A stretch of DNA of 64,000 nt from Liolophura sinensis (taxonomy: Eukaryota > Mollusca > Polyplacophora > Chitonida > Chitonidae): positions 26,899,915-26,963,914 of the forward strand of contig NC_088297.1 of the NCBI RefSeq assembly GCF_032854445.1, in the 5' to 3' direction. A model generated the notes under the pieces. It was not told where the DNA came from, did no database searches, and worked only from the letters and a program-made list of their open reading frames with translations. Of the stretch, positions 1,561-43,770 are shown in pieces (positions within the stretch are counted from its first letter, which is position 1; every line of letters begins with the position of its first letter). The position numbers and the translations under genes are program-made.

Positions 1561-1634
1561 CAACAGTCTTAGCCAGATGATACATCTGTTTCCCACTAAC
1601 ACCACGAGGAGGTTCTGCTGAGTGGTTAGTGATA
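1560..1634 (-). repeat. Conserved block of the hairpin cassette (copy A)
   Basis: Read on the minus strand, this is the block with CCTCCTCGTGGTGTTAGTGG followed by a CATCTGGCTAA motif. The same block lies downstream of both RING-like ORFs near 13.8 and 18.5 kb, and partly at 11.42 kb. As in those loci it lies just beyond a hairpin array on the coding-strand side. The sequence diverges from the other copies beyond it. Confidence 0.8.
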
Positions 1635-1736
1635 GGAACCAATTACTGGGTTCCAGGGGCCAATTACCGTGCCCCAGCTCCTAATTAGAGGAGCAAAACA
1701 AAATGTCACACAAACGACTCCCAATTACACTGGAGT
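1635..1736 (-). repeat. Hairpin array A: four stem-loops with AATTA loops
   Basis: Four short perfect stem-loops at 1635-1654, 1656-1675, 1677-1694 and 1717-1736. Their stems differ completely (GGAAC/GTTCC, GGGGC/GCCCC, GCTCCT/AGGAGC, ACTCC/GGAGT), yet every loop holds AATTA, usually as CAATTACNNN. The array starts about 16 nt past the stop codon of the minus-strand ORF at 1752-2162. Function unknown; pairing maintained with different bases argues for selection on structure. Confidence 0.85.
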
Positions 1737-1751
1737 AAAGTAAACAGTTTC

Positions 1752-2162
1752 TTAATCACGAAGACTTTCGATCTGAGCATCCCGCTCAGCAGTCAGAACA
1801 GCCATGGCGTCTGTAAGCTCTTGAAACGAGGAGCATCCTTCAGTGGGTGATGGGGATGGCGCGGCTTGCGCTGATGGAACTGTTGTCCCGGGCTGTTTAT
1901 CACCCTTTGTTGCAGCCAGGGCGTCGGCAAGCTGTGCAAATGAGGGGCCTCCTCCAAGGAGTGGTGCCAGTTCTTCGGATGAAGCGAGTGAAGCAGGAAG
2001 AGCCTGTAATTCTGGGGGAAATGGTGGTGGTGCGCGGCCTAGACCCCACATCGATCTCCACCTAGTCATCCGTGGTTCTTCTTGTTCCATCTCTACAAGG
2101 GGGATCGCTTCTGCAACGTCCTCAGGCTCGGACCGAGCCCTCCTGGAAACGCAACTGCCCAT
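1752..2162 (-). CDS. Small putatively myristoylated/palmitoylated protein (element-borne)
   Basis: An open frame of 136 codons from the ATG at 2162. I preferred this start over an upstream in-frame one because it creates MGSCVSRRAR, a textbook dual-acylation N terminus: Gly2 with Ser6 for N-myristoylation, Cys4 for palmitoylation, then Arg7, Arg8 and Arg10. Next come an acidic stretch (residues 11-30), a Trp/Met-rich patch (32-40) and a Pro/Ala-rich middle. A ten-residue motif occurs twice, SFAQLADALA at 74-83 and SFQELTDAMA at 112-121. The ORF is strikingly GC-rich against AT-rich flanks. Downstream it shares the hairpin array and conserved block with the two RING-like ORFs, so I infer it belongs to the same mobile or virus-like family. 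Membrane attachment is inference; I do not recognise the family. It could be a captured or relict viral gene. Confidence 0.55.
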   Translation of the reverse strand: MGSCVSRRARSEPEDVAEAIPLVEMEQEEPRMTRWRSMWGLGRAPPPFPPELQALPASLASSEELAPLLGGGPSFAQLADALAATKGDKQPGTTVPSAQAAPSPSPTEGCSSFQELTDAMAVLTAERDAQIESLRD

Positions 2163-2324
2163 TGAAATCAAAAGAAGTGAAAGAAATGAAAAAGAATTTG
2201 TCCGAGTGTCCGAGTAAAAACAAATCACCTCGTAAATATAGCCTCTGTCGAGGTGGGTATAGCAACTTTTCATAGCGCATCCACAACGCTGTAAATGAAC
2301 CAGTCCGGACAGAACTCAGAATTT

Positions 2325-3235
2325 TTTAGTGCAACCACTTAAAAAGTTGTTTAACATTGTCGCTGAAATTTAGTTCACACGTGCATCAAGATTACAAATC
2401 TGCAATAATTATATTTGTACTTTTCTTAGCACCAACAATTTGACAAAACCATCGTATGTAAATAACACTAGAGCTTCGTGCTAGACTGCATGAAACCATT
2501 GACTGCAGTTTACCGTGGGAACGGGCATGAGCTCTGTAACAATGTATTCTTTCTCCCCGTTGTCCTCAGCTATCAGCCGAAGATCAGAGCCGCCTAATCT
2601 CTATGCTAGTCTTCAGTACTTGCTCCATTGTAAATGATGCCCGGCAGTCTTGTGGTTCAAATCCAGTACATTCCTTTCAATTTTTTTTTTGCGTTTTTTC
2701 AATATCATGAACTTTGTAAACACCAGGCTACCAGAAGTCGTAGAAGATTTGTGGCGTGTACCCCGGCAATGCTGTTGGATAACAGCTTTAATTATTATTA
2801 TTTTCGGCAATACTCGTGCTTCTAGCAAAAACGGTCAGTTCGATGTTGATGAAATTTTATCATGTTTGTCTCCAGGACATGAAATTGTGCATCGGCAGAT
2901 AAGGACATGTGACTTGGCTGCCATCTTGATCAAAACCTAAAATATCTAGAACGACTAAAGCAAATGCGCTGAGATTTGAGCTGCAGTTGCACAAAGCCAA
3001 GGTGCATTCAGAGTGTGATTGTGTACTTTCTCCTTTGAAAATTGTACAAGCTCGCTATTGGGTGAAAATGTCATGTGACAAAAAACCCGGTTTTTGCCAA
3101 TAATGTCTACAATTTCAAAGATAATGTCCAGCAAATATTCATATCTGATGCAGATTTGGACGCTGATTCTGAATATTCAATTTTTGAAAAACCGGAAGTG
3201 ACGCTAGAGATGCAATCTTAAGGCCTTATATCATC
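2325..3235. repeat. ~0.9 kb dispersed repeat R1, copy 1
   Basis: The first of four copies of one interspersed repeat (others at 5253, 5998 and 10325). Shared landmarks include TTGACTGCAGTTTACCGTGG, a Pol III B-box-like GGTTCAAATCC near 2656, CACCAGGCTACCAGAAG, and a 3' portion containing CCGGAAGTGACGCTAGAGATG. No protein is encoded. The B box suggests a SINE-like or Pol III-derived origin for part of it, but no matching A box was found. Confidence 0.8.
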
Positions 3236-3330
3236 CCATGGAAAGCAGGTAGCTTTCACATAGCCGGAAGGCGATGAAACGCTATCTCCCGTTTTTCCAG
3301 GTCAAGTGACACAAAACGATAATGATATGT

Positions 3331-4842
3331 TTAGTTTTCCTAGATGTAAGCAAGGCTTTTGATCAAGTCTGATATGAGGGTCTTTTGTTTAAATTGAGAC
3401 TGTTGAGTGTTGAGGACCCATTACTGACATGGATTACGAATTATTTATCTGATAGAAAAATTAAAGTGTGTTTAAACGGAGCAGATTCAGACATATATTC
3501 TATCCAAAGCGGAGTTCCACAAGGCTCCGTTCTAGGACCGCTTCTTTTCCTAATTTTTGTAAATGACATAAATGTGAACATTGAATGTAATATCAATATT
3601 TTTGCTGATGACACATCTTTGTCCGAAGAGATGACTTAGTTTGATGCATGTGAAAGTAAAATAAATGGAGATCTAGGTCGCTTGTCTGAATGGGCCAAAC
3701 AGTGGTTGATAACATTCAATGCACAGAAAACTGTATACTTACTTGTTTCCTTAAAAAAGAACCCGATATACCCAAAACAATATTTAGATGGTATTGAAGT
3801 GACGAGCGTTCAGTACCATAAACACCTTGATATCATTCTACAGCACGATGGTAAATGGGACGAACTTACAACATCACTCGTAAATAAATGTAATAAGAAA
3901 TTAGGTATTATAAATAGAGTGAAGAGGATATTAACAAGGAAGTGTTTAATAACTTTATACAATAGCATCAGTAGATCTACAATAGAGTATGGCGACATAT
4001 TATATGATAACTGTAGTATTGCGCTTTCCCAAAAACTGGAAAATGTTCAACGGCGCGCGGCTTTGCTTTGTACAAGTGGAATGCGTCGTACATCAGATAA
4101 AGCTCTGCTGAGTGAACTCAATTGGACACCACTATATGTTCGGCGTAGACACCATAGGATTCTGCTATTTTTTAAAATTGTAAATGGACTTTACCCGCCT
4201 TACTTACAGTCCCTATTATAGAGACGATCAACAGAGTATAATATAAATAACTTAAGGTATAATGAAAATTTACGTATATTTAGATGCCGCCTCAGTATAT
4301 ATAAATCTTCCTTCTTCCCGAAAACAACTAAGGACCGGAATAACTTACCTAAACATATTCGCCATTCTTCACTGAAAGAACTTCAAAAATTTCTATCTCC
4401 ATCAATTATTACTACATCTAGTGATTTAATATCGTTATATAATGACTTTAGCAACTTTTCATCTGTCCAGCACCGCAGAATGAGAATGGCATTCAGCGCT
4501 TTTCGGGCAGGCCTTATTAGGTATAATATTATCGAAGACACTACTTGCCATTACTGTAATGATACATGTGAAGATACCTTTCATTATCTTTTTATTTGCT
4601 CTCAATTTGCCACCCATAGGAAGCATATGCTACATACTCTCACACAAATTATTTCACCTGGTGCAAATTATTCTGTTTTTATTCCACAATGTTCACGATA
4701 TATATGTAACATACTTTTGTTTAGCTCTAAAGATTTAAATTACGAAGACAACAACCTTGTTTTTCAATGTGTGCATAAATTTATCAATGATACAGAAAGA
4801 TTTTTGACCATGGTAATGGTAATAACGATGTTAACATTGTAA
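3331..4842 (+). pseudogene. Non-LTR retrotransposon (Jockey/CR1-like) reverse transcriptase, 5'-truncated
   Basis: Encodes the C-terminal half of a LINE ORF2. Visible RT motifs are FLDVSKAFD, SVLGPLLFLIFVNDI and the catalytic FADD at 3601-3612, then a thumb/C-terminal region ending in a Cys/His cluster (CHYCNDTCEDTFHYLFIC, near 4540-4600). The frame is continuous for 1.5 kb, interrupted only by three nonsense codons: TGA at 3370, TAG at 3637 and TAG at 4219. The TGA replaces the Trp expected after the AFDxV motif. No frameshift was needed. The endonuclease domain and part of the RT fingers are missing, as expected of a 5'-truncated insertion. The 3' UTR resumes after an inserted SINE and ends near 5249 in TAAATAAATAAAG. 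Clade placement is from motif style only. Confidence 0.9.
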
Positions 4843-4849
4843 ATAATAA

Positions 4850-5105
4850 TTAATTTATTAATTTTTACGCCGTACTGAAGAATATTTCACCTATACGACG
4901 GCGGCCAGCATTATGGTGGGTGGAAACCGGGCACAGCCCGGGGGAAACCCACGACCATCCACAGGTTGCTGTCAGATCTTCCCACGTACGGCCGGAGAGG
5001 AAGCCAGCATGAGCTGGACTTGAACTCACAGCGACCGTATTGGTGAGAGACTCCTGGGTCATTACGCTGCGCTAGCGCGCTAACTAACTGAGCCACGGAG
5101 GCCCC
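4850..5105 (-). mobile_element. tRNA-derived core SINE, near full length, inserted in the LINE 3' UTR
   Basis: Read on the minus strand it starts GGGGCCTCCGTGGCTCAG, an A-box-like TGGCTCAGTTAGTTAGC, and has a B-box-like GTGAGTTCAAGTCC. A conserved core follows (GGTCGTGGGTTTCCCCCGGG, then GGCCGCCGTCGTATA), with a 3' tail ending near GAATATTCTTCAGTACGGCG and A/T-rich repeats. Layout resembles the mollusc tRNA-SINEs with a deeply conserved central domain (established knowledge; exact family not checked). It splits the LINE 3' UTR, so it inserted later. Confidence 0.9.
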
Positions 5106-5249
5106 ATTTCAACTTATAACTGAAATATGTATTCTCGTATGTATCTACTTCGTTAGTTATTATGTTGTTAATTGTTGCTTTGAGGAGATCTCCGTAGTAG
5201 CCATTAGGCTGTGAGAAATCCTCGTTAAATAAATAAAGAATCAAATTAA
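5106..5249 (+). mobile_element. LINE 3' UTR remainder
   Basis: Continuation of the retrotransposon after the SINE. It holds no ORF and ends in a short TAAATAAATAAAG tail typical of LINE 3' ends. Confidence 0.65.
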
Positions 5250-5252
5250 AAT

Positions 5253-5612
5253 TAAAACCATTGTATGTAAATAAAACGGGAGCTTTGTGCTAGACTGCAT
5301 TAAATCATTGACTGCAGTTTACCGTGGGAACGAGCGTCTTCTCTGCAACAATGTATTCTTTCTCCCTGTTGTCCTCAGCTATCAGCAGAAGGTCAAAACT
5401 GCCAAATCTCTACGCTAGTCTTCAGTACTCGGTCCATTGTAAATGGTGCTCGGCAGTCGAGGGGTTCAAATCCAGTACATTCCTTTCCATATTTTTCGCG
5501 TTTTTTCTTTATCATGAACTTCATAAACACCAGGCTACCAGAACTGGTAGAAAATTAGTGGCGTGTTCCCCGGCAACGCTGTTGGATAACAGCTTTAATT
5601 ATTATTAGTATT
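5253..5612. repeat. R1 repeat, copy 2 (partial)
   Basis: Matches the first ~360 bp of R1, including the TTGACTGCAGTTTACCGTGG block and GGGTTCAAATCC near 5463. It stops at the ATTATTATT run. The following 5613-5997 is AT-rich and holds no gene or repeat I recognise. Confidence 0.75.
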
Positions 5613-5997
5613 ATTATTATTTTTCTTAGTCGTCTCGTAAGTTTGCAACATGTCAAAAAATATAAAAGGAAGAAAAAAACAAACTTTGGAGTCTTAATAA
5701 GGAACATATGAAGCAGCTTTTGACGTTGAGTGCTGTTTTACCACTCACCTGATTTAGCGGCCATTTTGAATTTTTATGATACGCTAAAAAAATCTTCTCC
5801 AAAACGGCTAAACCTATCGAGCTAAACGTTTTGTTTACAGTTTATAGGTGGATCGTCCTACCCAGATTGTAAACAGCTTTTAGTTCGGTATGCAAATAAG
5901 GTCAAAACTGACCAACGAACATGGTTCAAAAACACGTCGTTTTTAAAAACCGCTTAAAATCACAAAATAACACATACACTATCTTGTGTCCCATGAC

Positions 5998-6905
5998 ATC
6001 ACGATTACAAATCTGCAAGAATTATTTTTGTACTTTGCGTTGTTTTACCTTATGACCAAAAAACACCAGCAAAAATCCGACAAAATCGTCGTATGTAAAT
6101 AACACGAGAGCTTCGAGCTAGACTGCATGAAACCATTGACTGCAGTTTACTGTGGGAACGGGCATGAGCTCTGTAACAAGGTATTCTTTCTCCCTGTTGT
6201 CCTCGGCTATCAGCCGAAGATCAAAGCCGCCTAATCTCTATGCTAGTCTTCAGTACCTGGTCCAGTGTAAATGATGCCCGGCAGTCTTGGGGTTCAAATC
6301 CAGTACATTCCTTTCCATTTTTTTTTTCGCGTTTTTCCATTATCATGAACTTTATAAACACCAGGCTACCAGAAGTGGTAGAAGATTTATGGCGTGTACT
6401 CCGGCAAGGCTATTGGATAACAGCTTTAATTATTATTATTCTCGGCAAAACTGTTCCGAGTTTCTAGCAAAAACGGTCGGTCCAATGTTTATAAATTTTA
6501 TCATGTTTGTCTCTAGGACTTGAAGCTGTGCATCGTAACTTTTTCGGCAGATAGGGACATGTGACTTGGCGGCCATCTTGATCAAAACCTAAAATATCTA
6601 GAACAAATAAAGCAAATGCGCTGAGATTAGAGCACCAGTTGCACAAAGCCAAGGTACATTCAGAGTGTGATTGTGTACTTTCTCCGTTGAAAATTGTACA
6701 AACTCGCTATTGGGTGAAAATGTCATGCGACCAAAAAAACCGTTTTTTGTCAAAAATTTCTACAGTTTCAAAGATAATGTCCAGCAAATACTCATATCTG
6801 ATGCAGATTTGGACGCTGGTGCCGAATATGCAATTTTTGCAAAACCGGAAGTGACGCTAGAGATGCTATCTTAATTCCTAACATCATCTCAAAGAAAGCA
6901 GACAG
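5998..6905. repeat. R1 repeat, copy 3
   Basis: A full-length copy of R1, colinear with copies 1 and 4, with the B-box-like GGGGTTCAAATCC near 6290. Its right end abuts the Tc1/mariner element, which starts at 6910, so the transposon inserted at or near the R1 terminus. Confidence 0.8.
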
Positions 6906-6909
6906 CTTT

Positions 6910-8414
6910 TACACTCTTCAAAAAGAAACGCAAAATGAAATTCAAAAATGATACTTACAATTTTGTACACATGTGTTAACTCAAACAGTTTTGTAGGGTT
7001 GCACATTGTTACTGGAATGTTTCTGAAGATCATCCTTGACCAAACGCAACCAAAAATGATTTTGAACGGTTTTATCAATTAGGATTGTTATGATGTGCGT
7101 TGATGTCGTGCAGCACGAAGTTCAGGCACAATGATTGTTTGTCACGTTCAAAACATGAGTACAGCATGTGACTATAAAAGACCCAAACGAATCTCACAAT
7201 TTTATCCAATATCTTTGCAAGTACTATCCACGAAAATGGGACGTCTCAACGCTGCCGACCGAAATCAGGCAATTGGACGATTGCAAGCTGGGGAATCAAA
7301 GAGTGAGGTGGCAAGGATCTTCAACGTTCATCCCAGCACAATAACTCGGTTGTGGGATCGATTTCGTCAAACAAATGTGACAAATGGCCGTCCAAATTCA
7401 GGAAGACCTAGAGTCACCACACCTGCCCAAGATCGGTACACCCGGGTAACCCGCCTACGTACCGCCCAGGACACAGCACAAGAACAGTTTGGAGCCCGAA
7501 GAGTGTCCGATCAGACAATCAGGAACCGTCTCTGAGAAGTAGGAATACGTGCCAAAAGTTGCCCCCTCCTTGACACGACTACATCGACGTCGACGAGTGA
7601 GATGGTGTACCACGGTGCTGCCATGGAACCTGGCAAAGTGGAGGCGCATATGATTTAGCGATGAATCCCGTTATCTCCTCAGGCGACGTGATGGTAGAGA
7701 CGTGTCTACAGACGACGTCATGAACGTTTTGCTCCTCACTGCATCAGACAGGTGGGCAGATTCGGTGGAGGGAGTGTTATGGTGTGGGCAGCGAGCTCCT
7801 ACACCTGCAGATCTGAGCTTATGCTTGTCCAAGGCAATCTGACGGCCAATCGATACATCGACCAGATTCTCCGCTTGCACGTCCTTCGCCTTGTTGACTT
7901 TCAACGGCAGCTCTTCCAACAGGACAACGCCAGGCCCCATACAGCACGTGCCACCGTGGACTACCTGGCCAATAACATCAATGCCCTTCCCAGGCCCTCC
8001 AAATCCCCGGATCTAAACCCAATCGAACACCTTTGGGATCAGATCGATAGACGGCTGCGTCCACGTCGTATTCCACCACAGAATCTTCAACAGTTGTTCC
8101 ACATGCTGTAGGAGCAATGGAGAAGGATTCCACAACAAAACATCAAACGGCTGATCCGATCTGTACCCCGGACGTGTCTGGCAGTGGTAGCAGCTGGGGG
8201 TGGTCATACGAGGTACTGACTTCAACACCACCTGGTGGACAGCAGTAATGACTGTGATAACTGTTAATCTCATGAAATATGGACAACATAGTAATGCATT
8301 ACTCCACAAAATTTCATTCATGTATGTTTGTTTTCCGCTGATCTACACGTCCTTGAATAACATCAAATTTACATTGATATTTGGGTTTTGCGTTTCCTTT
8401 TTTGAAGAGGTGTA
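6910..8414 (+). mobile_element. Tc1/mariner-type DNA transposon, complete but inactive
   Basis: A ~1.5 kb element flanked by TA on both sides (6910-6911 and 8413-8414), the signature target duplication of the IS630-Tc1-mariner superfamily. The terminal inverted repeats are 6912-6935, beginning CACTCTTCAAAAAGAAACGC, and 8386-8412, whose complement begins CACCTCTTCAAAAAAGGAAA; they differ by small indels. It carries a single broken transposase gene. The host sequence is R1 copy 3 on the left. Confidence 0.93.
7236..8111 (+). pseudogene. Tc1-like transposase, frameshifted
   Basis: The first frame (7236-7535, start MGRLNAADR) has the paired helix-turn-helix DNA-binding region: EVARIFNVHPSTITRLWDRF, then the GRPRVTT linker typical of Tc1 proteins. 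It ends in a premature TGA at 7533. The first catalytic Asp lies in FSDESRYLL at 7654 in another frame. The second and third catalytic residues are in a third segment: QQDNARPHTA (Asp) and SPDLNPIEHLWD (Glu). One nonsense codon plus at least two frame changes are needed to explain this, so the gene is dead. The residues of the DDE triad are themselves still present. Confidence 0.92.
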
Positions 8415-8429
8415 TATTTGGGCCTTTTT

Positions 8430-9480
8430 GACGTCCCCATGTTATGATGCATTTTAAATGCATTTATGACTAGGGTAAATGCACAAACATTATAAGCATG
8501 CTACGCGACGTACTTCAACGTCCTGATCATGAATATGTACATATTTCTTTCCTGCGACGTATAGTGTTGTAAATTGCGATAAAATTGCGAAAAATGCAAT
8601 TTCCACCATACTAGATTTCTCGTGACCGGAAACTGTGACAGTTGTAAAGCTGAAAATTACTGAGTGTAAATCGCTGTACATGTACTCCTATTTGTGCTAA
8701 AAATCGTTGAGCTGTGTTGAAAAGACGAGAAAAATGACTATAAAGAATGTAGACTAAGTAAGTTAATTATGTATCTATACACGGACACCATTAAGGTAAA
8801 CGGAAGTGACACATCACGTGTTCTCATCACGAATCTGGACGATTTTTCTCTTCTCCCACGCACAGTTTTGTCGCCAGTTGCCAGTTAACTGCGAAAAAGT
8901 GCAATTTGCCCCCATGTTTGGAGGGCACGTGACACAAAATCGTTACAGGTGTATAGCTGAAAATGGCTGCATGCAAAGGGCTATATGTGTACTGTTTGCG
9001 CGCAGAAAATTGTTCCAGTGTCTTAATAAATGCGGGAGTTTTGAAAAATTGTGCAATTGTTGATTTACAATATTTGACATTTTGACGTCCCCATGTTATA
9101 TGATGCATTTTAAATGCATTTATGACTACGATAAATAAAATGTACGAACAATGCAAGCATGTTACTCGACGTAGTTTGACCTCCTGATCATGAATGTGGA
9201 TTTATTTCTATCCTGTGACGTATAGTTTTGATTACTGAATGCAAAGCGCTATACATGTACTCTGTGTGATGAAAATCGTTGAGCTGTGTTGATGAAGATG
9301 GGACCTGCACGCCTTCAAATATTGTCCAAAGGTCGATTTGCTCCGTTTGGCACCTTTTCATACACGTTATATAGTGTACTTACAAAGCACTAATGGCTAC
9401 TAAGAATGTAGGCTTTCTAAATAAGTTGGTAATGTATCTATACATGAACACCATTAAGGTAACCCGAAGTGACACTGTAT
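8430..9480. repeat. Diverged direct repeats (~0.65 kb unit with internal ~0.33 kb copies)
   Basis: GACGTCCCCATGTTAT and the palindromic GATGCATTTTAAATGCAT occur at 8430-8465 and again at 9083-9121. Both are followed by colinear blocks (GACGT...CCTGATCATGAAT, AAAATCGTTGAGCTGTGTTG, GAACACCATTAAGGTAA). Part of the unit also recurs near 8860-9010 (GCGAAAAAGTGCAATTT, AGCTGAAAAT). No coding potential or terminal repeats were seen. The rest, to 10320, is anonymous apart from short GAGA-rich duplications near 9930 and 10190. Confidence 0.7.
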
Positions 9481-10324
9481 AAGCGGGAAACCGGTGATTT
9501 CCTTCCCAAAACAAACGCAGAATGCCCACTAATCTGTGATCCCTTTGATCATGATGTGAGCAATTACACCCGAAAGACAAATTTCCGAAAGAAATAATAT
9601 ACACTAGTAGAATTTGGAAAAAGTCAATGGTGTCAGTAGCCAGTGATTAGTTAAAGTAAAGGTAGGAAAAATATTTGATATTTAACCAATTGTTTCTAAT
9701 TAACTAATCGTGTAGATGCATTGATGCAAGCACCGTAGTATGAAACTCCCCTCAGTGCTACGGGAATTATTGCATAATACTTTGTTGCAGAAGTTAGGCC
9801 TAAGACTCGTACCGGACCTAGTGACTGATCAGTTAACAATAACATGTACTGTGTTACAAACTTGTGCATTCCAGTAATTGTGCTGGTTGAATGTGAATGT
9901 CTTGTGACAAACAGGGATAACCTAACTTTCAGTGGGAGAGAAAGTAGTTTGGGGCGAGAGAAAGAGAATAAATTAGTCTATTTGCGACATGTGCTCAACG
10001 ATATGTAGATAGACAGTGTTTGACTACTTAACGTTTGAGATAATTACTTCATATTGATGCATCATACGAAGTCGTGATCTACGTACGTATGAGATGCGGC
10101 GCACAGTTAACAGAGTAAAGTTATTCGTTAAGCTATCCAAGCTTTATTGTTCACAAAGATGGAAGCAAATAGAGAGACAGAGAGGGAGACGTGGAATCAA
10201 AGAGGTGAACAGAGAGAGAGTGGGTGGGTGTAGTGTGGAGAGAAAGAATTATTTTACACGCGGCATGTACTAACCGATAATTAGACATATATTTCTTGAC
10301 TAATTTAATTTGTAGACTAATCTA

Positions 10325-11256
10325 GTCTACAACTTAAAAAGTTGTTCAACATTTTCGCTGAAATTTAGTTCACGCGTGCATCACGATTATAAATCTGCAA
10401 GAATTATTTTTGTACCTTTTTTACCACCAACAATTTGACAAAACCATCGTATGAAAATAACACGGGAGCTTCGTGCTAGACTGCATTAAACCATTGACTG
10501 CAGTTTACCGTGGAAACCGGCGTCAGCTCTGCAACAATGTATTCTTTCTCCCTGTTATCCTCAGCTGTCAGCCGAAGATCAAAGCCGCCTAATCTCTATG
10601 CTAGTCTTCAGTACTTGGCCCATTGTAAATGCTGCCCGGCTGTCTTGAAACTCAAATCCAGTACACTCCTTTCCATTCTTTTGCGCGTTTTTTCATTATC
10701 ATGAACTTTATAAACACCAGGCTACCAGAAGTCGTAGAAGATTTGTGGCGTTGTGACCCGGCAATGCTGGTGGATAACATCTTTATTTATTATTCTCGGC
10801 AAAACTGTGCCGAGTTTCTAGCAAAAACGGTCAGTTCGTTGTTGATGAAATTTTATCATGTTTGTCTCTATGACATTGTGCATAGTAAGTTTTCCGGCAG
10901 ATAGGGACATGTGACATGGCGGCCATCTTGATCAGAACCTAAAATATCTCGAACGGCTAATGCAAATGCGCTGAGATTTGAGCTGCAGCTGCACAAAGCC
11001 AAGGTACATTCAGAGTGTGATTGTGTACTTTCTCCGTTGAAAATTGTACAAGCTCTCTATTGGGTGAAAATTTCATGTGAACAAAAAAAACCCGTTTTTG
11101 GCCAATAATGTCTACAATTTCAAAGATAATGTCCAGCAAATATTCATATCTGATGCAGATTTGGACGCTGATTCTGAATATTCGAGTTTTGCAAAACCGG
11201 AAGTGACGCTAGAGATGCAATCTTAAGGCTTACATCATCCCAAGGAAAGCAGACAG
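10325..11256. repeat. R1 repeat, copy 4
   Basis: Colinear with copies 1 and 3 from the AAAAAGTTGTTCAACATTTT start to the CCGGAAGTGACGCTAGAGATG end. The B-box region has decayed here (CTCAAATCC). The next 110 bp are a short CA/T-rich stretch. Confidence 0.8.
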
Positions 11257-11370
11257 CACAAAAAAAAACACACACTCACACACGGACTATCTTGTGTTTG
11301 CAAGAAATATTTTTGTACTTTGTGTTGGTTTTATCTTATCTTGTTTTTTGTGTCGTATTTTTTTGTGTTT

Positions 11371-11530
11371 TTGGGCACGGTAATTGGCCCCGGGGCACAG
11401 TAATTGGCAACTTTTACAATGCATCATCTGGCTAATGCTGCTGACTCTTTGGTTTCTTCTTTTGAGCAACAATTTTTATGAATGTCCTTGCGCGATTTCT
11501 TACCGTATTTTGTATAGGCCTTCCTGAATC
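11371..11530 (+). repeat. Hairpin cassette D (partial): two stem-loops plus conserved block
   Basis: One intact hairpin (11373-11390, GGGC/GCCC) and one decayed hairpin (11392-11410), both with the loop ACNGTAATTG. The conserved block containing CATCATCTGGCTAATGCTGC and the end GGCCTTCCTGAATCTGCGAG follows. No ORF remains upstream, so this is probably a truncated element copy. Confidence 0.75.
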
Positions 11531-11589
11531 TGCGAGGCAAATTTAAAGGTTGCGTGTTTAAAAAGAAATGTTATAGATTAAGTAGGGTT

Positions 11590-12785
11590 TTTCAAAAAAA
11601 TTTCAAAATCGAAGTCAAATTTCGACCTCCGTTTGGGAGGTCAAGATGGAGGTGGAGGTCAAAACTGACCTTATATTCGTAATTTGCTACCTCGATTACC
11701 CCCGGTATTAAATTTTCAGGTCAATCGGAGAAAAAAAAGTGGTCCACCCATTTCTTGGCTCCGTGAAAAATGGCGGAAATTTTTTTTTGGCTCCGATTAA
11801 CCAGAAACTTTAATCCCAGGGGTTATGGAGGTCGTAGATCACTAAGTCGAGGTCACACAGATTTGACATTGATCTCGATCTCGACCTCAAAAGGGCGATG
11901 TATTTATTAGGACCGCCATTTTTGAGATTAAGATGGAAGTTGGGGTCAAAACTGACTGAATCATAATTTGCGACTTCGATTACCCCTGTAATAAATTTTC
12001 AGGTAAATCGGAGAAAAAAAGGATTCAACCCATTTTTAAATCCCATGTTAACCTTATGGATGAAAAATGGCGGGAATTTTTTTTGTCTCCGATTGACCTC
12101 ATGAGGTCGTAGATCACGAATCCGAGGTCAGGTATGACATTGACCTCAATCTTGACCCCAAAAATTGCGGTATAAATATTAAGACCGCCATTTTCGAGAT
12201 TAAGATGGAAGTTAGGGTCAAAACCGACCTGGTATTCGTAATTTGCAACCTCGATTATCCATGTAATAATCTTCCAGGTCAATCCGAGAAAAAAAAGTGT
12301 TACACCCATTTTTTGGCCCCATATTAATCTTATGGGTGAAAAATGGTGGGAAAATTTTTTGTCTCCGATTGACCTAAAACTTTACTAGCAGGGGTAATCA
12401 AGGTCATCACGAATCTGAGGTCAGATTTGACATTGACATCGACCGCCATTTTGAAGGTTAAAATCGAAGTCAAGGTCAGATCTGATTTCATATTCGTAAT
12501 CTCCGATCTCGGTTACCCTTTGAGTCAAAGTTTGAGTTTGATCGGGAAAAAAAGTTTTAGACCCATTTTCCACGTTGAAGCATAGTGCCCATTTTATAAG
12601 ATAGCCCGAGGTTAAAGCATATGGCCCTTGTTATTAGATAACCCTAGGTTAAAGCATAGGGCCAATGTTATTAGGTTGGTGTCAGAAAACTTTTTTCCGT
12701 GATTGACGTCAAACCTTGATACCAGGGGCAATCAAGGTCGCACATCAAGAATCCGAGGTAAGATCTGTCCTACACCTCGATAGTT
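11590..12785. repeat. AGGTCA-rich tandem repeat block 1
   Basis: Roughly four imperfect units of ~290 bp. Each has a half reading GACCGCCATTTT...AGGTCA...CTCGATTACCCC...AGGTCAATCGGAG and a second half that is largely its reverse complement (CTCCGATTGACCT...TCGAGGTC). The units are internally palindromic and dense in AGGTCA/TGACCT. The tail (12585-12680) carries the AAAGCATAGGGCC / TGTTATTAGAT motif also found near 17.04, 18.1 and 20.5 kb. No protein coding. Confidence 0.8.
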
Positions 12786-13046
12786 TCCGGCGGTAACTTA
12801 TACTGCCCATGCTAAATTCGTCGAATGTAGTAGTGTAATCCAGTGTCGTGAGATAAACCATCTTGTCTACAGCTGAAGATGTATATGGCTAACTTTATCC
12901 TTACAAAAGGCACACGTCCCAAGTGATACGACTTTCTGCTAGCTAAGACACTTTCGGACTTCACGACATACTCCCCAGGTAATAGGTCGTGCTGAGCTCA
13001 AGAATAACAGTATTTCGTCTCTTAAATTCCAGAACACCAGACAACC

Positions 13047-13541
13047 ATGTCTTGCCGTCTGTGCGAAAGCCCGACGGGCCGGAGGAACCTGCCCGTGAGA
13101 ATGAGGTGTGGCTGTGTCCTTTGCATCAGATGCCTACGCCACACGATGATGGCAGCATACACTATGACTAGAGACTGGAGCCCAATAACCTTTGGCAGCG
13201 GGAACCTTTGTCCCCACTGCAGCGCCGACTCCAGGTGGCGCCAGTACGTCGCGCCACCGCAGCCCATGATAGGAAGGCGGCAGCTGCCGGGGCGCACGTT
13301 GATCGTGCTCTTCACAAACCTGGCGGTTTGGCGATACGCCAGGCTGCACCTCAGAGAATTGCCCAGCGTGGTTAGCTGTTACCCTGTCGCAGGACAGCTC
13401 TCATGCCAGGTCCACCTCAAGTTCGAACAGGCCATCCGCGTCTTGAGGACACTTAACATGCCGTGCAGCTGTTACTTCGTTGGACGCCGCCACTTCCTCG
13501 ACGCCTTGCGTTTGACGTCGTCAGGCTCCCTGGCGCTGTGA
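13047..13541 (+). CDS. RING-like zinc-finger protein of unknown family (element-borne)
   Basis: A 164-codon frame with start context ACAACCATGTC, conserved in the inverted partner. The N-terminal ~60 residues hold an eight-cysteine treble-clef/RING-like arrangement: CRLC, then CGC-x2-C-x2-C (RCGCVLCIRCLRHT), then CPHC. His is absent from the fourth ligand position, so it is a C8 variant rather than classical C3HC4. The remainder is basic, with WRQYVAPPQP near residue 65 and a Leu/Arg-rich segment (FTNLAVWRYARLHLRELPS). RING domains usually act as E3 ubiquitin ligases or assembly modules; here that is inference. It is GC-rich in AT-rich surroundings. The partner at 18848-19255 is alike over ~120 residues, so the frame has been under protein-level constraint. 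The hairpin array begins ~70 nt past the stop. Confidence 0.7.
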   Translation: MSCRLCESPTGRRNLPVRMRCGCVLCIRCLRHTMMAAYTMTRDWSPITFGSGNLCPHCSADSRWRQYVAPPQPMIGRRQLPGRTLIVLFTNLAVWRYARLHLRELPSVVSCYPVAGQLSCQVHLKFEQAIRVLRTLNMPCSCYFVGRRHFLDALRLTSSGSLAL

Positions 13542-13608
13542 ATTTCTTCCTGCCACGGTGATCGTCAGTATGTTTTTGTGTGGTGTGTTTTTGTTTGTCC
13601 TTGTGTAT

Positions 13609-13788
13609 GGGCACAGTAATTGGCCCCTGTCCCTGCGTTCAACACAATGCTTTTGTGTCCTGTTTTTTGTGTTTTTTGGGCAGAGTAATTGGCCCAGCGG
13701 CAGAGTAATTGGCCGTCTTCCATGTTTGTATCTGTTTGTCCTTGTCCGTGGGCACGGTAATTGGCCCCGGGGCACAGTAATTGGCCCC
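13609..13788 (+). repeat. Hairpin array B: five stem-loops with loop ANNGTAATTG
   Basis: Stem-loops at 13609-13626, 13678-13695, 13698-13715, 13750-13767 and 13769-13788. All loops are 10 nt: ACAGTAATTG, AGAGTAATTG, AGAGTAATTG, ACGGTAATTG and ACAGTAATTG. Four stems are GGGC/GCCC or GGGGC/GCCCC, while the third is CGGC/GCCG, a compensated change. The array lies in the 3' region of the RING-like ORF. Confidence 0.88.
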
Positions 13789-13789
13789 T

Positions 13790-13960
13790 TTCACTAACCA
13801 TTCAGCAGAACCTCCTCGTGGTGTTAGTGGGAAACAGATGTATCATCTGGCTAATGCTGCTGACTCTTTGGTTTCTTCTTTTGGGAAACAATTTCCATAA
13901 ATGTCCTTGCGTGATTTCTTACCGTATATTGCACAGGCCTTCCTGAATCTGCGAGGCAAA
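13790..13960 (+). repeat. Conserved block of the hairpin cassette (copy B)
   Basis: Contains CCTCCTCGTGGTGTTAGTGG through GGCCTTCCTGAATCTGCGAG. One reading frame stays open and hydrophobic here: LLVVLVGNRCIIWLMLLTLW, then CPCVISYRIL, ending at a TGA. Much of that frame is preserved in copies at 11.4 and 18.4 kb, although 18.4 has an early TGA. It may be a small membrane peptide or just shared ancestry. Confidence 0.65.
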
Positions 13961-13989
13961 TTTCAAGGCTGCGTGTTTAAAAATTAATA

Positions 13990-14575
13990 TCACAGGTCAG
14001 GTAGAGTTTTTTAAAAAAATTTTCAAAATCGAAGTCAAATTTCGACCGCCATTTTGGAGGTCAAGATGGAGGTGGAGGTCAAACCTGACCTTATATTCGT
14101 AATTTACTACCTCGATTACCCCCTGTATTAAATTTTCAGGTAAATCGGAGAAAAAAAAGTGGTCCACCCATTTCTTGGCTCCGTCAAAAAATGCGGAAAA
14201 ATTTTTTGGTCTCCGATTGACCTGAAACTTTAATACCAGGGGTTATGGAGGTCGTAGATCACGAATTCGAGGTCACACAGATTTGACATTGATCTTGATC
14301 TCAAAAGGGCGATGTATTTATTAGGACCGCCATTTTTGAGATTAAGATGGAAGTTGGGGTCAAAACTGACGTCATATTCGTAATTTGCGACTTCGATTAC
14401 CCCTGTAATAAATAATAAAAATGGCGGGAAAATTTTTTGTCTCCGATTGACCTCAAAGTTTACTAGCAGGCGTAATCGAGGTCGTAGATTACGAATCCGA
14501 GGTCAGATATGACATTGATCTCGACCTTCAAAATGGCGATCTTAGGCATTGGTCACAGAAACCAAGGATTTAAAG
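13990..14575. repeat. AGGTCA-rich tandem repeat block 2
   Basis: Two imperfect units of the same ~290 bp repeat as at 11590, opening with TTTCGACCGCCATTTTGGAG. It ends at a C-run near 14579. Confidence 0.8.
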
Positions 14576-15120
14576 ATACCCCCCCCCACCCAAAATCATC
14601 CGACTTCTGATTATTTGTGAATAAACTAAATGCATTGCTGATTCTCCATGCCAAGTGTCAAGGGAGTTATTTACAAAGTTGCAAAAACAGAGGTACCCAT
14701 CCCAAGGAAGGATTCGATAAAGGCATCATGCCACCTCTTTTACATATTATCGATACAGACGTAAGGATGTATTTTTGCAACTGCAGGCTTGTCATATACA
14801 TAGATACATACATACGTATCCCCCGATTCTCCGAATTCCGAGAGAGTATGTCCCATACTAGACACACATACCTGCCATACTCACCCTTCAACTCCCACAC
14901 TTGCATCATACTCACCTTTCCGTCTCAAATCTGTGACACTTCCCCGCACTCTCTAGTGGAGAACTATCGCTTAACACAGGAGAAGAGACAACTATTGCAG
15001 ATTTAAAAATCAGATAAAATCGTCTTTTTCACTGAGCTTTCGGTATATGATGGCCTGAACACTTGAAGGCCATCCCACGACATTTCCGTTGACCTCTGAC
15101 CTACATTTTGGACACCCTAC
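14576..15120. repeat. Anonymous sequence shared with 19.55-20.8 kb
   Basis: GTACCCATCC...AAGGA..GATTCGAT at 14690 recurs at 20698. The CATACTCACC/CCAC-rich stretch near 14880-14945 recurs at 19565-19635. These look like the same module on both flanks of the inverted pair. No gene seen. Confidence 0.6.
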
Positions 15121-15124
15121 TGTG

Positions 15125-16245
15125 TTGCCATACCTGTACTTCAAGGTTGACATGTGCAAATATGCATTCAGATTTGGATATGATTCCTTTAATTTCACAC
15201 ACATAGCATTCAAAATTGGCATGCTCAATCAACAATGCAAGTAGATTACTCACAAATAGGCAGAAGTTGTATAAAAAACTTACTAAAATATTTTGGGGGG
15301 AAATCTATCAGTCAAGCCATGCCTTTCATGTTAGTGGGTGCAAATATCCAATGGGATTTGGACATGATTCCTTTAAGTTCACACACACAGCATTCACAAT
15401 TGGCATGCTGAGACAGGAATGCATGTAGATTACTCACAAACAACCAGAGGTTCCATAAAAAATTTCTAAAAAAATATTTGGGGAACTACATGTATGTGTC
15501 ATACCTGTATTTCAGTGTTGAAGGGTGCAAATCTACAGATTTGGATATGATTTCTTTAATTTAACGCATATAGCACTCAAAGTTGGCAAGCAAAATCAGG
15601 AGTACATGTAGATTATTCACAAATAACCAGAAGTTGGATAAAAAAATTTAAAAAAAATATTTTGGGGGGAAATCTATCTCTCAAGCCATGCCTTAAATGT
15701 TAATGGGTGCAAAAGTGCATTTAGATCTGAAAATGATTCCTCATTTCATACACACAGCATTCAAAATTGACATGCTGAATCAGGAATGCATGTAAATTAA
15801 TCACAAACAACCAGATGTTCGATAAAATTTTTTGAAAAAAATATTTGGAGGTGGGAACTATATGTCATACCTGGATATCAATGTTGACAGGTGCAAATAT
15901 GCATTCAGATTTGGATCTGATTCCTTTAATTTCACACACATAGCATTCAAAATTGGCTTGCTTAATCAGCAATGCATGTAGATTGTTCACAAATAACCAG
16001 AAGTTGGATAAAAAGAATGTAAAGAAATATTTGGAGGAGAAATCTATCTCTCAAGCCATGCCTTAATTGCTGACGGCTGACAATGTGCATTTGAATTTGA
16101 CAATAACTCCTTTGATTTTACACACACAGCATTGAAAATTGACATGGTGAATGGAGAATGCATCTATATTATTCACAAATAATCAAGTTGAATAAAAGTA
16201 TTTTAAAAAATATTTGGCTGGGGGGGGGGGAGGCTATCTGTCATT
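15125..16245. repeat. ~184-bp satellite, six units
   Basis: A direct tandem array. Each unit contains GGGTGCAAATNTGCATTCAG, GATTCCTTTAATTTCACACA, AAAATTGGCATGCT, CAATGCATGTAGATTATTCA and a G-rich TATTTGGGGGGAAATCTATC. Period estimated from landmarks at 15156, 15340, 15525, 15709, 15892 and 16080. Confidence 0.88.
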
Positions 16246-16249
16246 CCTT

Positions 16250-17205
16250 AGTTTATGTTATCATCCCTCATGATCGCCATTTTGAAGGTTAAGGTCGAGG
16301 ACAAGGTCAGATCTGACCTCGGATGCGTGATCCACAACCTCGATTACCCCTGGTATTAAAGTTTGAGGTCAATCGGAGACAAAAAATTTTCAAGCCATTT
16401 TATCCTCAAAGGACTACCTCCCCTTAGGCCAAAAATGGGTCGAAAACTTTTGTTCTCAGATTGACCTCAGACTTTAACACAAAGGGTAATCGAGATTGGA
16501 AATCACGAATCCGAGGTTAGAGTTGACATTGACCTTGACCTTAAACTCTAGAACGGCGTTTGAAATATTGACTCCCATTTCAAAATTTCTTTTAAAAATC
16601 GCTGGTTAACCCTTCACCTTGACCTTTTGATATGTGATGACCCTATTACTTGCCCATAAATGCGTGACCTATTTTTTGACCTTTAACCCTTAGCCTATAC
16701 GTCAGATAGTACATTCCAAATGCACTATTCCAAAAGTACGTCAGAGGTTAGAAATCAATTAGGAGGCCATGCTTCGATGGGGAGGTGATGTGGTCATTAT
16801 ATATCAAGAGACGAAAGTCAGAGGTCAACCAGGAATTTTTTTAAAAAAATTTTAAAATGGGGATAAAGATTTTGACCGCCATTTTGAAGGTTAAGATCGA
16901 AGTCAAGGTCAGATCTGATTTCATATTTGTAATTTCCAAACTTGATTACCCTTTATGTTAAAGTTTCAAGTCGATCCAAGAAAAGAGTTTTTCACCCATT
17001 TTCCCATGTTAACGCATAGACCCATGTAAAAGCATAGGGTCTATGTTATTAGATATGTCATAAACTTTTTTCTCTGATTGACCTCAAATTTTTATACCAG
17101 AGGTAAATGAGGTCGTACATCACGAATCCGAGGTCAACTCTGACCTTGACCTCCTCCTTGACCTGCAAAATGGTGGTTCAATGTCTCAATTTGCACATGA
17201 TTTAA
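16250..17205. repeat. AGGTCA-rich tandem repeat block 3
   Basis: About three units of the AGGTCA repeat. Notable sites are AAGGTCAGATCTGACCTCG at 16302-16320, a palindromic pair of half-sites, and AGTCAAGGTCAGATCTG near 16900. Lies between two 184-bp satellite arrays. Confidence 0.8.
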
Positions 17206-17900
17206 TCATTTAATCATTTCATGACACTTTTAATTTTACACACACAACATTCAAAATTGGCATGCTCAATTAGCAATGCATGTAGATCATTCACAAATAA
17301 GCAGAATTTGGATAAAACAATTTTAAGAAAATATTTGGTAGGGGAAACTATGTGTCATACCTGTATTTTAATGTTGACGGGTGCAAATCTGCATTCAGAT
17401 TTGGATATGATTCCTTTACTTTCACACATACACCATTCAAAATTGGCATGTTTAATCAGCATTGGATGTAGATTATTCACAAATGATCAGAAGTTGCATA
17501 AAACACTTTAAAAAAAATATTGGGGGGGGGGGGGCGAATCTATCTCTCAAGCCATGTCTTCATGTTGATGGGTGCAAATATGCATTCATATCTGGACATG
17601 ATTCTTTTAATTTCACACACCATTCTAAATTGGCATGCTCAATCAGCAATGCATGTAGATTATTCACAAATAACCAGAAATTGGATAAAACAATTTTAAG
17701 AAAATTATTTGAGGTGGAAATCTATCTCTCAACTTATCCTTCAATGTTCACAATTCACAATGTGCATTTGAATTTGGAAATAACTCTTTTAATTTTACAC
17801 ACACAGCTTTGAAAATTAGCATGGTGAATCAGTAAGGCATCTACTTTATTCACAAATAATTAAAAGTTGGATAAAAAAAACCTTTAAAAAATACTAGGGC
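17206..17900. repeat. ~184-bp satellite, four units
   Basis: Same unit and orientation as the array at 15125-16245. Includes a G12 run near 17522. Confidence 0.85.
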
Positions 17901-17934
17901 TGGTGAGCTATCTGTCGTTCTTTGATTTATGTTA

Positions 17935-18310
17935 CTGTCCCTCAAGAATGCCTTTTGAAGGTCAAGGTCGAGGTAAAGGTCAGATCTGACCTCAGATTTG
18001 TGATTTACGACCTCGATTACCCGTGGTATTACAGTTTGAGGTCAATCAGGGAAAAAGAGTTTTTGACCCCTATCTAATAACATGGGCCCCATTGCTTTAA
18101 CTTTGGGGCTATCTAATAACATGGGCCCAATGCTTTAACATGGAAAATGGGTCCAAAACTTTTTTTTTCTGATCGACCTCAAAGTTTCATACAAAAGCTA
18201 ATCCAGGTCAGGGGTCAGGAATATGGGGTGAGTTTTGATCTCCACGGCCATCTTGACCACCAAAACGGCGGTTGAAATTTGACTTCGACTTTGAAATTTT
18301 TTTAAAAAAC
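17935..18310. repeat. AGGTCA-rich tandem repeat block 4
   Basis: Carries GGTCAAGGTCGAGG, a GGTCAGATCTGACC palindrome near 17980, and the GGGCCCAATGCTTTAACATG motif. Merges into the right inverted arm. Confidence 0.75.
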
Positions 18311-18339
18311 CCTACCTGACCTATTCTTCTTAAACACAC

Positions 18340-18515
18340 AGACTTCAAATTTGCCTCGCAGATTCAGGAAGGCCTGTACAATATACAGTAAGAAATCACG
18401 CAAGGACATTTATGGTAATTGTTTCCCAAAAGAAGAAACCAAAGAGTCAGCAGCATTAGCCAGATGATTCATCTGTTTCCCACTAACACCACGAGGAGGT
18501 TCTGCTGAATGGTTA
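18340..18515 (-). repeat. Conserved block of the hairpin cassette (copy C)
   Basis: Minus-strand copy of the block at 13790-13960, running from CCTCCTCGTGGTGTTAGTGG to GGCCTTCCTGAATCTGCGAG. The hydrophobic frame is interrupted by a TGA after VLVGNR. Confidence 0.8.
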
Positions 18516-18522
18516 GTGAAAG

Positions 18523-18694
18523 GGGCCAATTACCGTGCCCAAGGACAAACAGACACAAACACAGAAGACGGTCAATTACTCTGCCGCTGGGCCAATTACC
18601 GTACCCCACCCCCCACACACACACAAAAAAAAAAACTGAGACAAGCACAGGTACATGGGCCAATTACTGTGCCCCGGGGCCAATTACCATGCCC
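18523..18694 (-). repeat. Hairpin array C: five stem-loops with AATTA loops
   Basis: Stem-loops at 18523-18540, 18569-18586, 18589-18606, 18657-18674 and 18677-18694. On the plus strand the loops read CAATTACCGT, CAATTACTCT, CAATTACCGT, CAATTACTGT and CAATTACCAT. Two stems show single mismatches that would be G-U wobbles on one strand. The CGG-type stem stands at the homologous position to array B. Confidence 0.85.
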
Positions 18695-18847: not shown

Positions 18848-19255
18848 TTAAATCCATTCAAGACGACCATGGCCCCTGTCCAGGTTTGTGTGGACCTGCA
18901 ACGCGAGCTGTCCTGCGACAGGGTAACTGCTGACCACAGCGGGCAATTCTCTGAGGAGCAACCTGGCGTGTCGCCAAATCAGTAGGTTTGTGAAGCGCAC
19001 GATCAACTTGAGCCTCGGCGCCATCGGCCTTCTCCTGGGCTGCGGTGGCGCGACGTACTGGCGCCACCTGGGGTCGGGGCTGCAGTAGGGACAAAGGTTA
19101 CTCATGGCAAAGGTTACTGGGTTGCCGTCTATAGCCAAACCGTATGCTGCCATCAGCGTGTTGCGTAGGCATCTGATGCAAAGAACACAGCCACATCTCA
19201 TTCTCATGGAAGGGTTTCTCCGGCCCATCAGCCTTCCGCACATACGGCAAGGCAT
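18848..19255 (-). pseudogene. RING-like zinc-finger ORF, inverted partner, C-terminally truncated
   Basis: A 135-codon frame (start MPCRMCGRLMGRRN) paralogous to 13047-13541. All eight cysteine ligands are kept: CRMC, CGC-x2-C-x2-C, CPYC. The RING-like region and WRQYVAPPQP are closely conserved. After residue ~120 the frame shifts relative to its partner and meets an early TAA, losing the last ~30 residues, although the DNA similarity continues past the stop. It may still make a protein, but I call it damaged. The shared leader and 3' hairpin array show that both copies derive from one unit. Confidence 0.7.
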
Positions 19256-42118: not shown

Positions 42119-42479
42119 AATAATTTATTGTTTCACACTTTGCTGGTCATCATAATTTTCAGCAATACTTGTAATCTCGCCTTACAGAGTCTTAAGCACT
42201 CGTCCATTGCTTATATTAGCAAACCCTGATCACGTGTTACATGGTTATACCATTTCCCAATATTTACTTATGAACGATATAAAATCCGGGTTTATTACCT
42301 GCCAATAAAAAAAATTGGGGCGTATTAAGTGGTGTAGGCCTATAAATCGGCCGTGATCAGTCTGGGATAATACCGCATGACTAATTTATTCCATAATATT
42401 GGATGAGGTGTTAGGCCCAATACTTCCCAGATTAGACGACGGCAAAGCACTGCCGGGGTTTACGTGTAATGTGGAGAGT

Positions 42480-43770
42480 AAAGTCACACCTATTTACAAG
42501 AGTGACACCTAATTACAGGATGAGGAGTAAAATCAAATCTATTTATACCAGTGACACCTAGCCTACATGCAGGATGGAAAATAAAATAAGATCTACTTAC
42601 AGCAGTGACTCCTACATACAGGGTGGAGAGTACAATAAGATCTACTTACAGCAGTGACATATACATACAGGATGGAGAGTAAAATAAGATCTACTTACAA
42701 CAGTGACACCTACATACAAGGTTGAGAGTAAAATCAGATCTACTGATACCAGTGACACCTACATACAGGGTTGAGAGTAAAATTAGATCTACTTATACCA
42801 GTGACACCTACATACAGGGTGAAGAGTAAAATCATATCTACTTATACCAGTGACACCTACATACAGGGTTGAGAGTAAAATTAGATCTACTTATACCAGT
42901 GACACCTACATACAGGGTTGAGAGTAAAATTAGATCTATTCATACCAGTGACACCTACATACAGGGTTGAGAGTAAAATTAGATCTATTCATACCAGTGA
43001 CACCTACATACAGGGTTGAGAGTAAAATTAGATCTAGTTATACCAGTGACACCTACATACAGAGTGGAGAGTAAAATCAGATCTACTGATACCAGTGACA
43101 CCTACATACAGGGTTGAGAGTAAAATTAGATCTACTTATACCAGTGACACCTACATACAGGGTGGAGAGTAAAATCAGACCTTCTCATACCAGTGACACC
43201 TAGATACAGGGTTGAGAGTAAAATTAGATCTACTTATACCAGTGACACCTACATACAGGGTTGAGAGTAAAATTAGATCTATTCATACCAGTGACACCTA
43301 CATACAGGGTGGAGATTAAAATCAGACCTACTTATACCAGTGACACCTACATACAGGGTAGAGAGTAAAATCAGATCTACTTATACCAGTGACACCTATA
43401 TAAAGGGTGGAGAGTAAAATCAGATCTACGTACACCAGCAACATCTGTATACAGGGTGGAGGGTAAAATCAGACGTACGTATACCAGTGACACCTACATA
43501 CAGGGTTGAGAGTAAAATTAGATCTACTTATACCAGTGACACCTACATACAGGGTGGAGAGTAAAATCAGGCATACTTACAGGAGTGACACCTACATACA
43601 TGGTAGAGAGTAAAATCAGATCTACTTACAGCAGTGACACATACATACAGGGTGGAGAGTAAAATCATATCTACTTACAGCAGTGACACCTACATACAGG
43701 GTGGAGAGTAAAATCAGACCTACTTACCCCAGTGGCACCTGCATACAGGCTACAGAGTAAAATCAGATCT
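42480..43770. repeat. 49-bp satellite, about 26 units
   Basis: Unit contains ACCAGTGACACCTACATACA, GGGTTGAGAGTAAAATTAGA and TCTACTTAT. Period measured as 49 bp (42841 to 42890). Ends of the array are more diverged than the centre. Confidence 0.95.

Follow-up and report, generated by a model that had tools for sequence, protein, structure and literature searches.

Fixed-loop hairpin arrays ahead of a predicted HDV-like ribozyme downstream of small genes in the chiton Liolophura sinensis

What do sixteen short hairpins, alike in their loops and different in their stems, specify in four clusters of a chiton genome? The question is raised by a 64,000-nucleotide (nt) stretch of the 609-Mb genome of Liolophura sinensis, C3:26899915-26963914, hereafter the window, in which a first-pass annotation had described the hairpins as a structured recognition site for an RNA-binding protein, 3′-end processing, replication initiation or recombination. 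That annotation overlooked what adjoins them, a predicted hepatitis delta virus (HDV)-like ribozyme, and the meaning of the hairpins shifts to that of the upstream half of a predicted 3′-end cassette; the first interpretation is partly supported. The balance tips slightly towards a cassette in which the ribozyme would cut after the hairpins and leave a hairpin-tipped message end devoid of poly(A). All sixteen units, each of them a quasi-palindrome, were recovered at the positions first reported for them, and are listed here with the ribozyme modules that accompany them (bp, base pairs; ORF, open reading frame; P1 and the like, ribozyme helices; RF02682, an Rfam family):

1561-1631, minus strand: P1 to P2′ of a predicted HDV-like ribozyme that would cut between 1632 and 1631; RF02682 match of 41.1 bits at 1559-1630
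1635-1654, minus strand: last hairpin, GGAAC/GTTCC, loop CCAGTAATTG, ending 3 nt before P1
1656-1675, minus strand: hairpin GGGGC/GCCCC, loop ACGGTAATTG
1677-1694, minus strand: variant hairpin GCTCCT/AGGAGC, loop CTAATT
1717-1736, minus strand: hairpin ACTCC/GGAGT, loop AGTGTAATTG
11373-11410, plus strand: damaged copy with two hairpin units, the second with a stem of 2 bp; no upstream ORF seen
11419-11458, plus strand: remnant of a ribozyme module (module positions 47-86 only, P1 lost)
13609-13626, plus strand: hairpin GGGC/GCCC, loop ACAGTAATTG
13676-13697, plus strand: hairpin TTGGGC/GCCCAG, loop AGAGTAATTG
13697-13716, plus strand: hairpin GCGGC/GCCGT, loop AGAGTAATTG
13750-13767, plus strand: hairpin GGGC/GCCC, loop ACGGTAATTG
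13769-13788, plus strand: last hairpin, GGGGC/GCCCC, loop ACAGTAATTG, ending 3 nt before P1
13792-13862, plus strand: P1 to P2′ of a predicted HDV-like ribozyme that would cut between 13791 and 13792; RF02682 match of 38.5 bits at 13793-13861
18448-18518, minus strand: P1 to P2′ of a predicted HDV-like ribozyme that would cut between 18519 and 18518; RF02682 match of 37.7 bits at 18449-18517
18523-18540, minus strand: last hairpin, GGGC/GCCC, loop ACGGTAATTG, ending 4 nt before P1
18569-18586, minus strand: damaged hairpin CGGC/ACCG, loop AGAGTAATTG
18589-18606, minus strand: hairpin GGGT/GCCC, loop ACGGTAATTG
18657-18674, minus strand: hairpin GGGC/GCCC, loop ACAGTAATTG
18677-18694, minus strand: hairpin GGGC/GCCC, loop ATGGTAATTG

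The stems covary. A covariance model built from 15 units matched 98 times across the window and a set of 35 loci (cited below by L numbers), and these matches reduce to 44 distinct rows since overlapping loci repeat units; one row is the lone C11 match in L022. Across these rows 89.5% of the stem cells are paired against 65.0 ± 2.1% in shuffled alignments, 46 cells carry a two-sided change against 12.1, and covariation reaches 0.606 against 0.165, none of 500 shuffles attaining any of these values; when the alignment is slid by one to three columns, pairing is at most 64.8% and covariation at most 0.235. Two further measures do not stand out, namely how many pairs show a two-sided change (4 versus 3.9 in shuffles, reached by 420 of 500) and how many further pair types occur (12 versus 10.5, reached by 63 of 500). 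The rows are paralogues and the counts are thus not independent events, but paired stems of quite different sequence (GGGC/GCCC, CGGC/GCCG, GGAAC/GTTCC and ACTCC/GGAGT) are hard to explain otherwise, and the hairpins are confirmed as real, covarying structures. The description of stems that change and stay paired stands for all but two window units, with a mismatch after 2 bp at 11393-11410 and no closing pair at 18569-18586. Class C (L018, L023, L024 and L026, in which tandem units of ~160 nt include half ribozymes) also has stems with G-U pairs, whose retention suits RNA better than DNA.

The loop is less uniform than the nearly invariant 10 nt of the original description. GTAATTG is found at the loop in 15 of the 16 window units and in 38 of the 44 distinct ones, and the sixteenth window unit (1677-1694, minus strand; GCTCCT/CTAATT/AGGAGC) also forms a hairpin but has another loop, of 6 nt; in 24 of the 38 distinct GTAATTG units two extra pairs can close, with a bulged first base and a GUAAU pentaloop, and the supposed 10-nt loop may hence be smaller. 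At E up to 1 the window hairpins had no match to any Rfam family, and no histone stem-loop occurs among the Rfam matches; the sole matches of ribozyme or stem-loop type near them belong to RF02682.

That family was matched over all 74 model positions at three places in the window (E 3.5e-4 to 2.2e-3 for the sub-threshold scores listed above), each of them directly 3′ of the final hairpin of an array and on the strand that is sense for the ORFs. The RNA of ~71 nt found there has P1 (CACTAAC/GTTAGTG), P2 (CAGCAG/CTGCTG), P3 (ACC/GGT, loop TCCTCGT), P1.1 and P4 (CAGATG/CATCTG, loop TAT), together with an active-site C in J4/2 (GGCTAA), all delineated by hand. The 24 pairs of the five helices form in 98.0% of the cells over 31 aligned copies, 19 of them distinct: 98.5% for P1, whose 3′ strand directly follows P3/L3; 98.2% for P2, which closes the double pseudoknot and is present although it lies outside the RF02682 model; 100% for each of P3 and P1.1 (19 distinct rows); and 95.5% for P4. 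The naming rule for HDV-like parts, as given in the portion of PMC3774820 consulted, includes a P1 of ~7 nt with its 3′ strand directly after P3/L3. P4 is variable or absent in R2 ribozymes. All copies but L016, which has T, carry the active-site C (30 of 31); L021 is without two P4 bases and P1 is changed in L018. A fold descriptor, its ranges chosen after the ribozyme had been seen, matched the window only at 13792 (plus), 1631 (minus) and 18518 (minus), and 20 Markov copies gave 3 matches. Genome-wide, RF02682 produced 30 matches, all at cassettes (62 candidates were scored and others may exist), and none of 14 control genomes had a match. Judged by its anatomy, the module is a strong candidate for an HDV-like ribozyme: it shares with the known members (HDV, R2, L1Tc/Pr77, CPEB3 and RF02682) a 7-bp P1 joined to P3′, P2, P1.1, P4 and the J4/2 C, as well as a 3-bp P3 with a UCCUCG-type loop. 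It differs from them in its place, 3′ of small ORFs and behind a fixed-loop hairpin array. According to the parts of the sources consulted, HDV-like ribozymes are reported at the 5′ ends of retroelements (PMC7761336, PMC3774820) and in an intron of Cpeb3 (PMC10919898), and neither arrangement fits the cassette.

Order and orientation are nearly constant. In the genome 36 copies of the ribozyme module were found (16 on C3, 19 on C28 and one on C4), 31 of them full-length and five damaged (window 11419-11458, seen also on C28 in L025 and L029; L019; and the second copy in L030). The hairpin core GGCANNGTAATTGGCC has 67 matches in the 609 Mb, its reversed control having none, and 66 of them are followed on their 3′ side and own strand by a module within 500 nt, full-length in 63 cases and damaged in 3; the remaining one is the lone C11 match, which is without a module, and among the 67 no module lies 5′ of the core or on the opposite strand. 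Conversely, 31 of the 36 modules have an exact core match, and of the other five L030, L031 and L034 keep hairpins with altered letters. In 28 of the 31 full-length copies the last hairpin, with a stem of 4-6 bp, is separated from P1 by 2-4 nt (by 3 nt in 17); of the exceptions, L020 retains 2 bp, and L005 and L011 have an altered loop. The possibility raised at first pass that would have undone the pattern, hairpins scattered without association, is thus not borne out. A search for GNNNCANNGTAATTGGNNNC, covering stems with a G...C outer pair only, gave 53 genome matches, 26 of them outside cassettes, where all five pairs form in 2 of the 26, at about chance level. At every locus with a detected ORF the hairpins follow on its 3′ side, sense to it, and the three distances from the stop codon in the window, 16, 68 and 154 nt, agree with those first given. 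The cassette occurs with RING-like ORFs, with MG-start ORFs and in copies without an ORF; it is hence the ribozyme, and no single kind of ORF, that the hairpins are associated with. In class C, half ribozymes (the first 34 nt, ~85-88% identical) were observed inside the tandem units, ahead of one full-length copy (L023 at 1610 and 1771, L024 at 1083 and 1243, L026 at 1655 and 1817, L018 at 681).

These regularities bear on two other explanations. The units might be DNA elements, bound by a protein or extruded as cruciforms, as their quasi-palindromic form and the resemblance of TAATTG to homeodomain sites would allow; the G-U pairs of class C and the single side and orientation relative to the ribozyme at 66 of 67 core matches render this highly improbable, and neither replication initiation nor recombination found support in the analysis. 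Alternatively, the hairpins might do no more than prevent misfolding between the ribozyme and the sequence upstream, a role in keeping with the position of the last hairpin beside P1 and with the aid that upstream structure is reported to give to the HDV ribozyme. Such helpers would have no need of a fixed loop, or of arrays that extend ~400 nt upstream, and we regard this as quite unlikely. Covarying stems, class C G-U pairs and a position 3′ of ORFs in the sense direction do suit the structured recognition site in 3′-end processing that was among the first suggestions.

How such a site would work is suggested by the place of the predicted cut. HDV-like ribozymes cleave at the 5′ side of P1 (PMC3774820, in the portion consulted), and a cut there would make the upstream product end a few nt after a hairpin, without poly(A). 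This hairpin-before-cut half of the mechanism follows from the predicted anatomy. Transcription would run through the small ORF, then the fixed-loop array, then the predicted ribozyme, which would cut directly 5′ of P1, a few nt past the last hairpin; the 5′ product would comprise ORF and hairpins, and the downstream sequence including poly(A) would be lost. We think that the hairpins may then act as the end structure of the cut RNA, their fixed loop being contacted by an RNA-binding protein that would stabilise or regulate the end in the manner of the histone stem-loop. Histone mRNAs end a few nt past a short hairpin with a conserved loop and carry no poly(A). The likeness is an analogy of function only: the cassette has another stem and loop, arrays instead of one hairpin, and a predicted cut by a ribozyme in cis.

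The same anatomy would equally serve the chief rival, an off switch, in which the ribozyme strips poly(A) and the message is destroyed, a hairpin-bound protein blocking or permitting the cut and so gating expression. Precedents, as far as the consulted parts of the sources go, come from Leishmania, where HDV-like ribozyme-related sequences of the SIDER2/Pr77 kind in the 3′ untranslated regions (UTRs) of protein genes are linked to message decay (PMC4035085, PMC5509151), and from mammalian Clec2 genes, which have a discontinuous hammerhead, a natural self-cleaving ribozyme, in the 3′ UTR (PMC6155905). Each differs from the cassette: SIDER2 elements are retroposons with two tandem signatures, their decay is thought to need proteins, and ribozyme function went undetected in the 3′ UTRs of down-regulated messages (PMC4035085, PMC5509151), whereas the Clec2 ribozyme is a hammerhead, not HDV-like, suggested to control the polyadenylation site (PMC6155905); the parts of these sources consulted mention no hairpin array. 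A plain off switch has no need of several fixed-loop hairpins 5′ of the cut, nor of the spacing of 2-4 nt that 28 of the 31 copies keep there, and we judge it considerably less probable than a cassette that makes a hairpin-tipped end.

Conservation centres on the same place. The DNA common to classes A, B and C runs from about -45 to +85 around the predicted cut, which is to say two hairpins and the ribozyme. Identity over 14 class A copies is 94-100% in the last two hairpins and 87-98% in the ribozyme segments, the two parts held most tightly, and 87% in the spacer. Between the class A copy L009 and L017 and L031 the synonymous divergence (dS) is 2.2-3.4, and the coding synonymous sites look saturated, with ratios of nonsynonymous to synonymous change (dN/dS) of 0.17-0.31; for the same comparisons the ribozyme is 91.5%, the last two hairpins 95-98% and the 3′ flank of the ribozyme 83-88% identical. 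Six other coding pairs have dN/dS of 0.3-3.3, from few changes. The extent of the common DNA also speaks to the possibility that the cassette is a mobile-element remnant, in which the ribozyme once freed the RNA of a retroelement that spread the cassette along with it, the hairpins being part of the element. Many HDV-like ribozymes do sit at retroelement 5′ ends (PMC3774820, PMC7761336, in the parts consulted), and a retroelement-like ORF with an integrase domain lies directly upstream of some class A copies. The 5′-end type (R2 or L1Tc) has a conserved element 3′ of the cut, whereas here the sequence common to the classes stops ~14 nt beyond the ribozyme and takes in 45 nt on the 5′ side of the cut; only 36 module copies were found, 35 of them on C3 and C28; and the upstream neighbours vary, being the retroelement ORF beside some copies and another, hAT-like by eye, beside others. 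A mobile-element origin thus appears unlikely.

The reading as a cassette that makes a hairpin-tipped end rests on stem covariation, ribozyme anatomy, order and orientation, and conservation. From these we infer that the cassette would be transcribed and would cut, that the cut RNA would be a working message and that its loop would be read by a protein. A number of points weigh against it. HDV ribozymes placed in reporter 3′ UTRs usually reduce expression. The P1 described here starts with C, where G is usual, and every RF02682 score falls below the gathering score of 44 (best 41.1; none of the 30 genome matches above it), so that the module is not filed under that family (HDV-F-prausnitzii). 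Covariation in the ribozyme is uninformative, with one two-sided change that 134 of 500 shuffles reach, because the copies are too similar in sequence. The three hairpin arrays have folding energies not clearly better than those of dinucleotide shuffles (z +0.12, -1.94 and -1.40), and hairpin units can pair with neighbouring units. Several cassette copies are damaged, and an ORF of 60 amino acids (aa) was sought upstream in class C and none was found. No AATAAA or ATTAAA precedes the ribozyme in 29 of 32 loci, a count of little power. As to conservation, the dS of 2.2-3.4 rests on an alignment that is poor in the proline-rich middle; the upstream hairpins of the 14 class A copies, at 76-87%, are no better kept than the 87% spacer, and with 86% identity in the 3′ flank of the ribozyme as well, conservation extends beyond the last hairpins and the ribozyme, and gene conversion could add to it.

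The genes ahead of the cassettes form a fast-evolving family, and those in the window are three:

1752-2162, minus strand: class A ORF, 136 aa, MGSC start
13047-13541, plus strand: class B ORF, 164 aa, RING-like
18848-19255, minus strand: class B ORF, shortened, its frame departing from the 163-164 aa homologues after ~129 residues

Class A ORFs mostly have an MG start with a nearby Cys, a proline-rich middle and a common C-terminal motif; the MGSC start of 1752-2162 is presumably an acylation signal. Those of L015, L017 and L031 encode small MGC-start proteins with a PPPPVPPRP-like stretch, reminiscent of membrane-anchored SH3-binding adaptors. In class B, RING-like by virtue of eight Cys that are invariant in six aligned copies, Pfam support for the RING is weak (best E 0.067 and 0.018), and an AlphaFold2 model of the protein was poor (mean predicted local distance difference test score 48.2) and was not used. 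On C28 (283,152 bases) the genes recur as a set every ~103.4-103.5 kb, with RING-like ORFs at 50289/153698 and 56353/159859 and MG-start ORFs at 64920/168418, reflecting either a large tandem duplication or an assembly effect.

The integrase-domain frame directly upstream of some class A ORFs has 744 aa (L156 5555-7789, plus; L158 3694-5928, minus); in L014 a stretch of 421 aa gave a match to Pfam rve (E 4.5e-8), parts resembling gag and protease were recognised by eye, and no reverse transcriptase was noticed in the frame. A retroelement 3′ end was considered as the source of the cassette and rejected: beside other class A copies the retroelement-like ORF is replaced by other sequence, and being present beside some copies only it is a neighbour and not part of the cassette. 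A viral origin was likewise rejected, as the RING-like and MGSC protein patterns matched 2 and 26 viral stretches, none of which passed tblastn. The hairpin core occurs in at least 120 stretches of viral contigs, once in each among the matches listed, which we take as chance in a large collection, and PHROGs matches reached only E 0.11 and 0.16.

Elsewhere, the window has minisatellite arrays with 43-49-nt units (42471-43774, 44950-45211, 47577-48525 and 48736-50772) and, by eye, remains of a Tc1/mariner-like transposase and a reverse transcriptase (7104-8111 and 3373-4842); Pfam found no transposon family in 3682-4218. On C8, eight molluscan-type hemocyanin domains stand in tandem, one unit of which matches solved hemocyanins, of molluscan origin, over most of its length, in agreement with a molluscan host.

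The ribozyme class is a known one; its present use and the hairpin array were not found described in the literature searched. Among the titles and abstract openings covered, most subscription papers lying outside, none described mollusc protein genes followed by an HDV-like ribozyme, or a fixed-loop hairpin array standing before one. We put forward, tentatively, that these genes may represent a family of animal mRNAs with a ribozyme-made 3′ end, in which tandem fixed-loop hairpins take the place of poly(A) and a dedicated protein binds the loop, a second, ribozyme-made end of the histone type. Natural ribozymes with a clear host role in animals are few. If the proposal is true, this would be a host gene family that defines its message ends by a ribozyme, with gene, hairpin array and ribozyme kept together despite coding divergence; whether a message cut by a ribozyme and left tail-less can be stable could then be tested directly, and there would be a handle for finding a protein that reads the loop.

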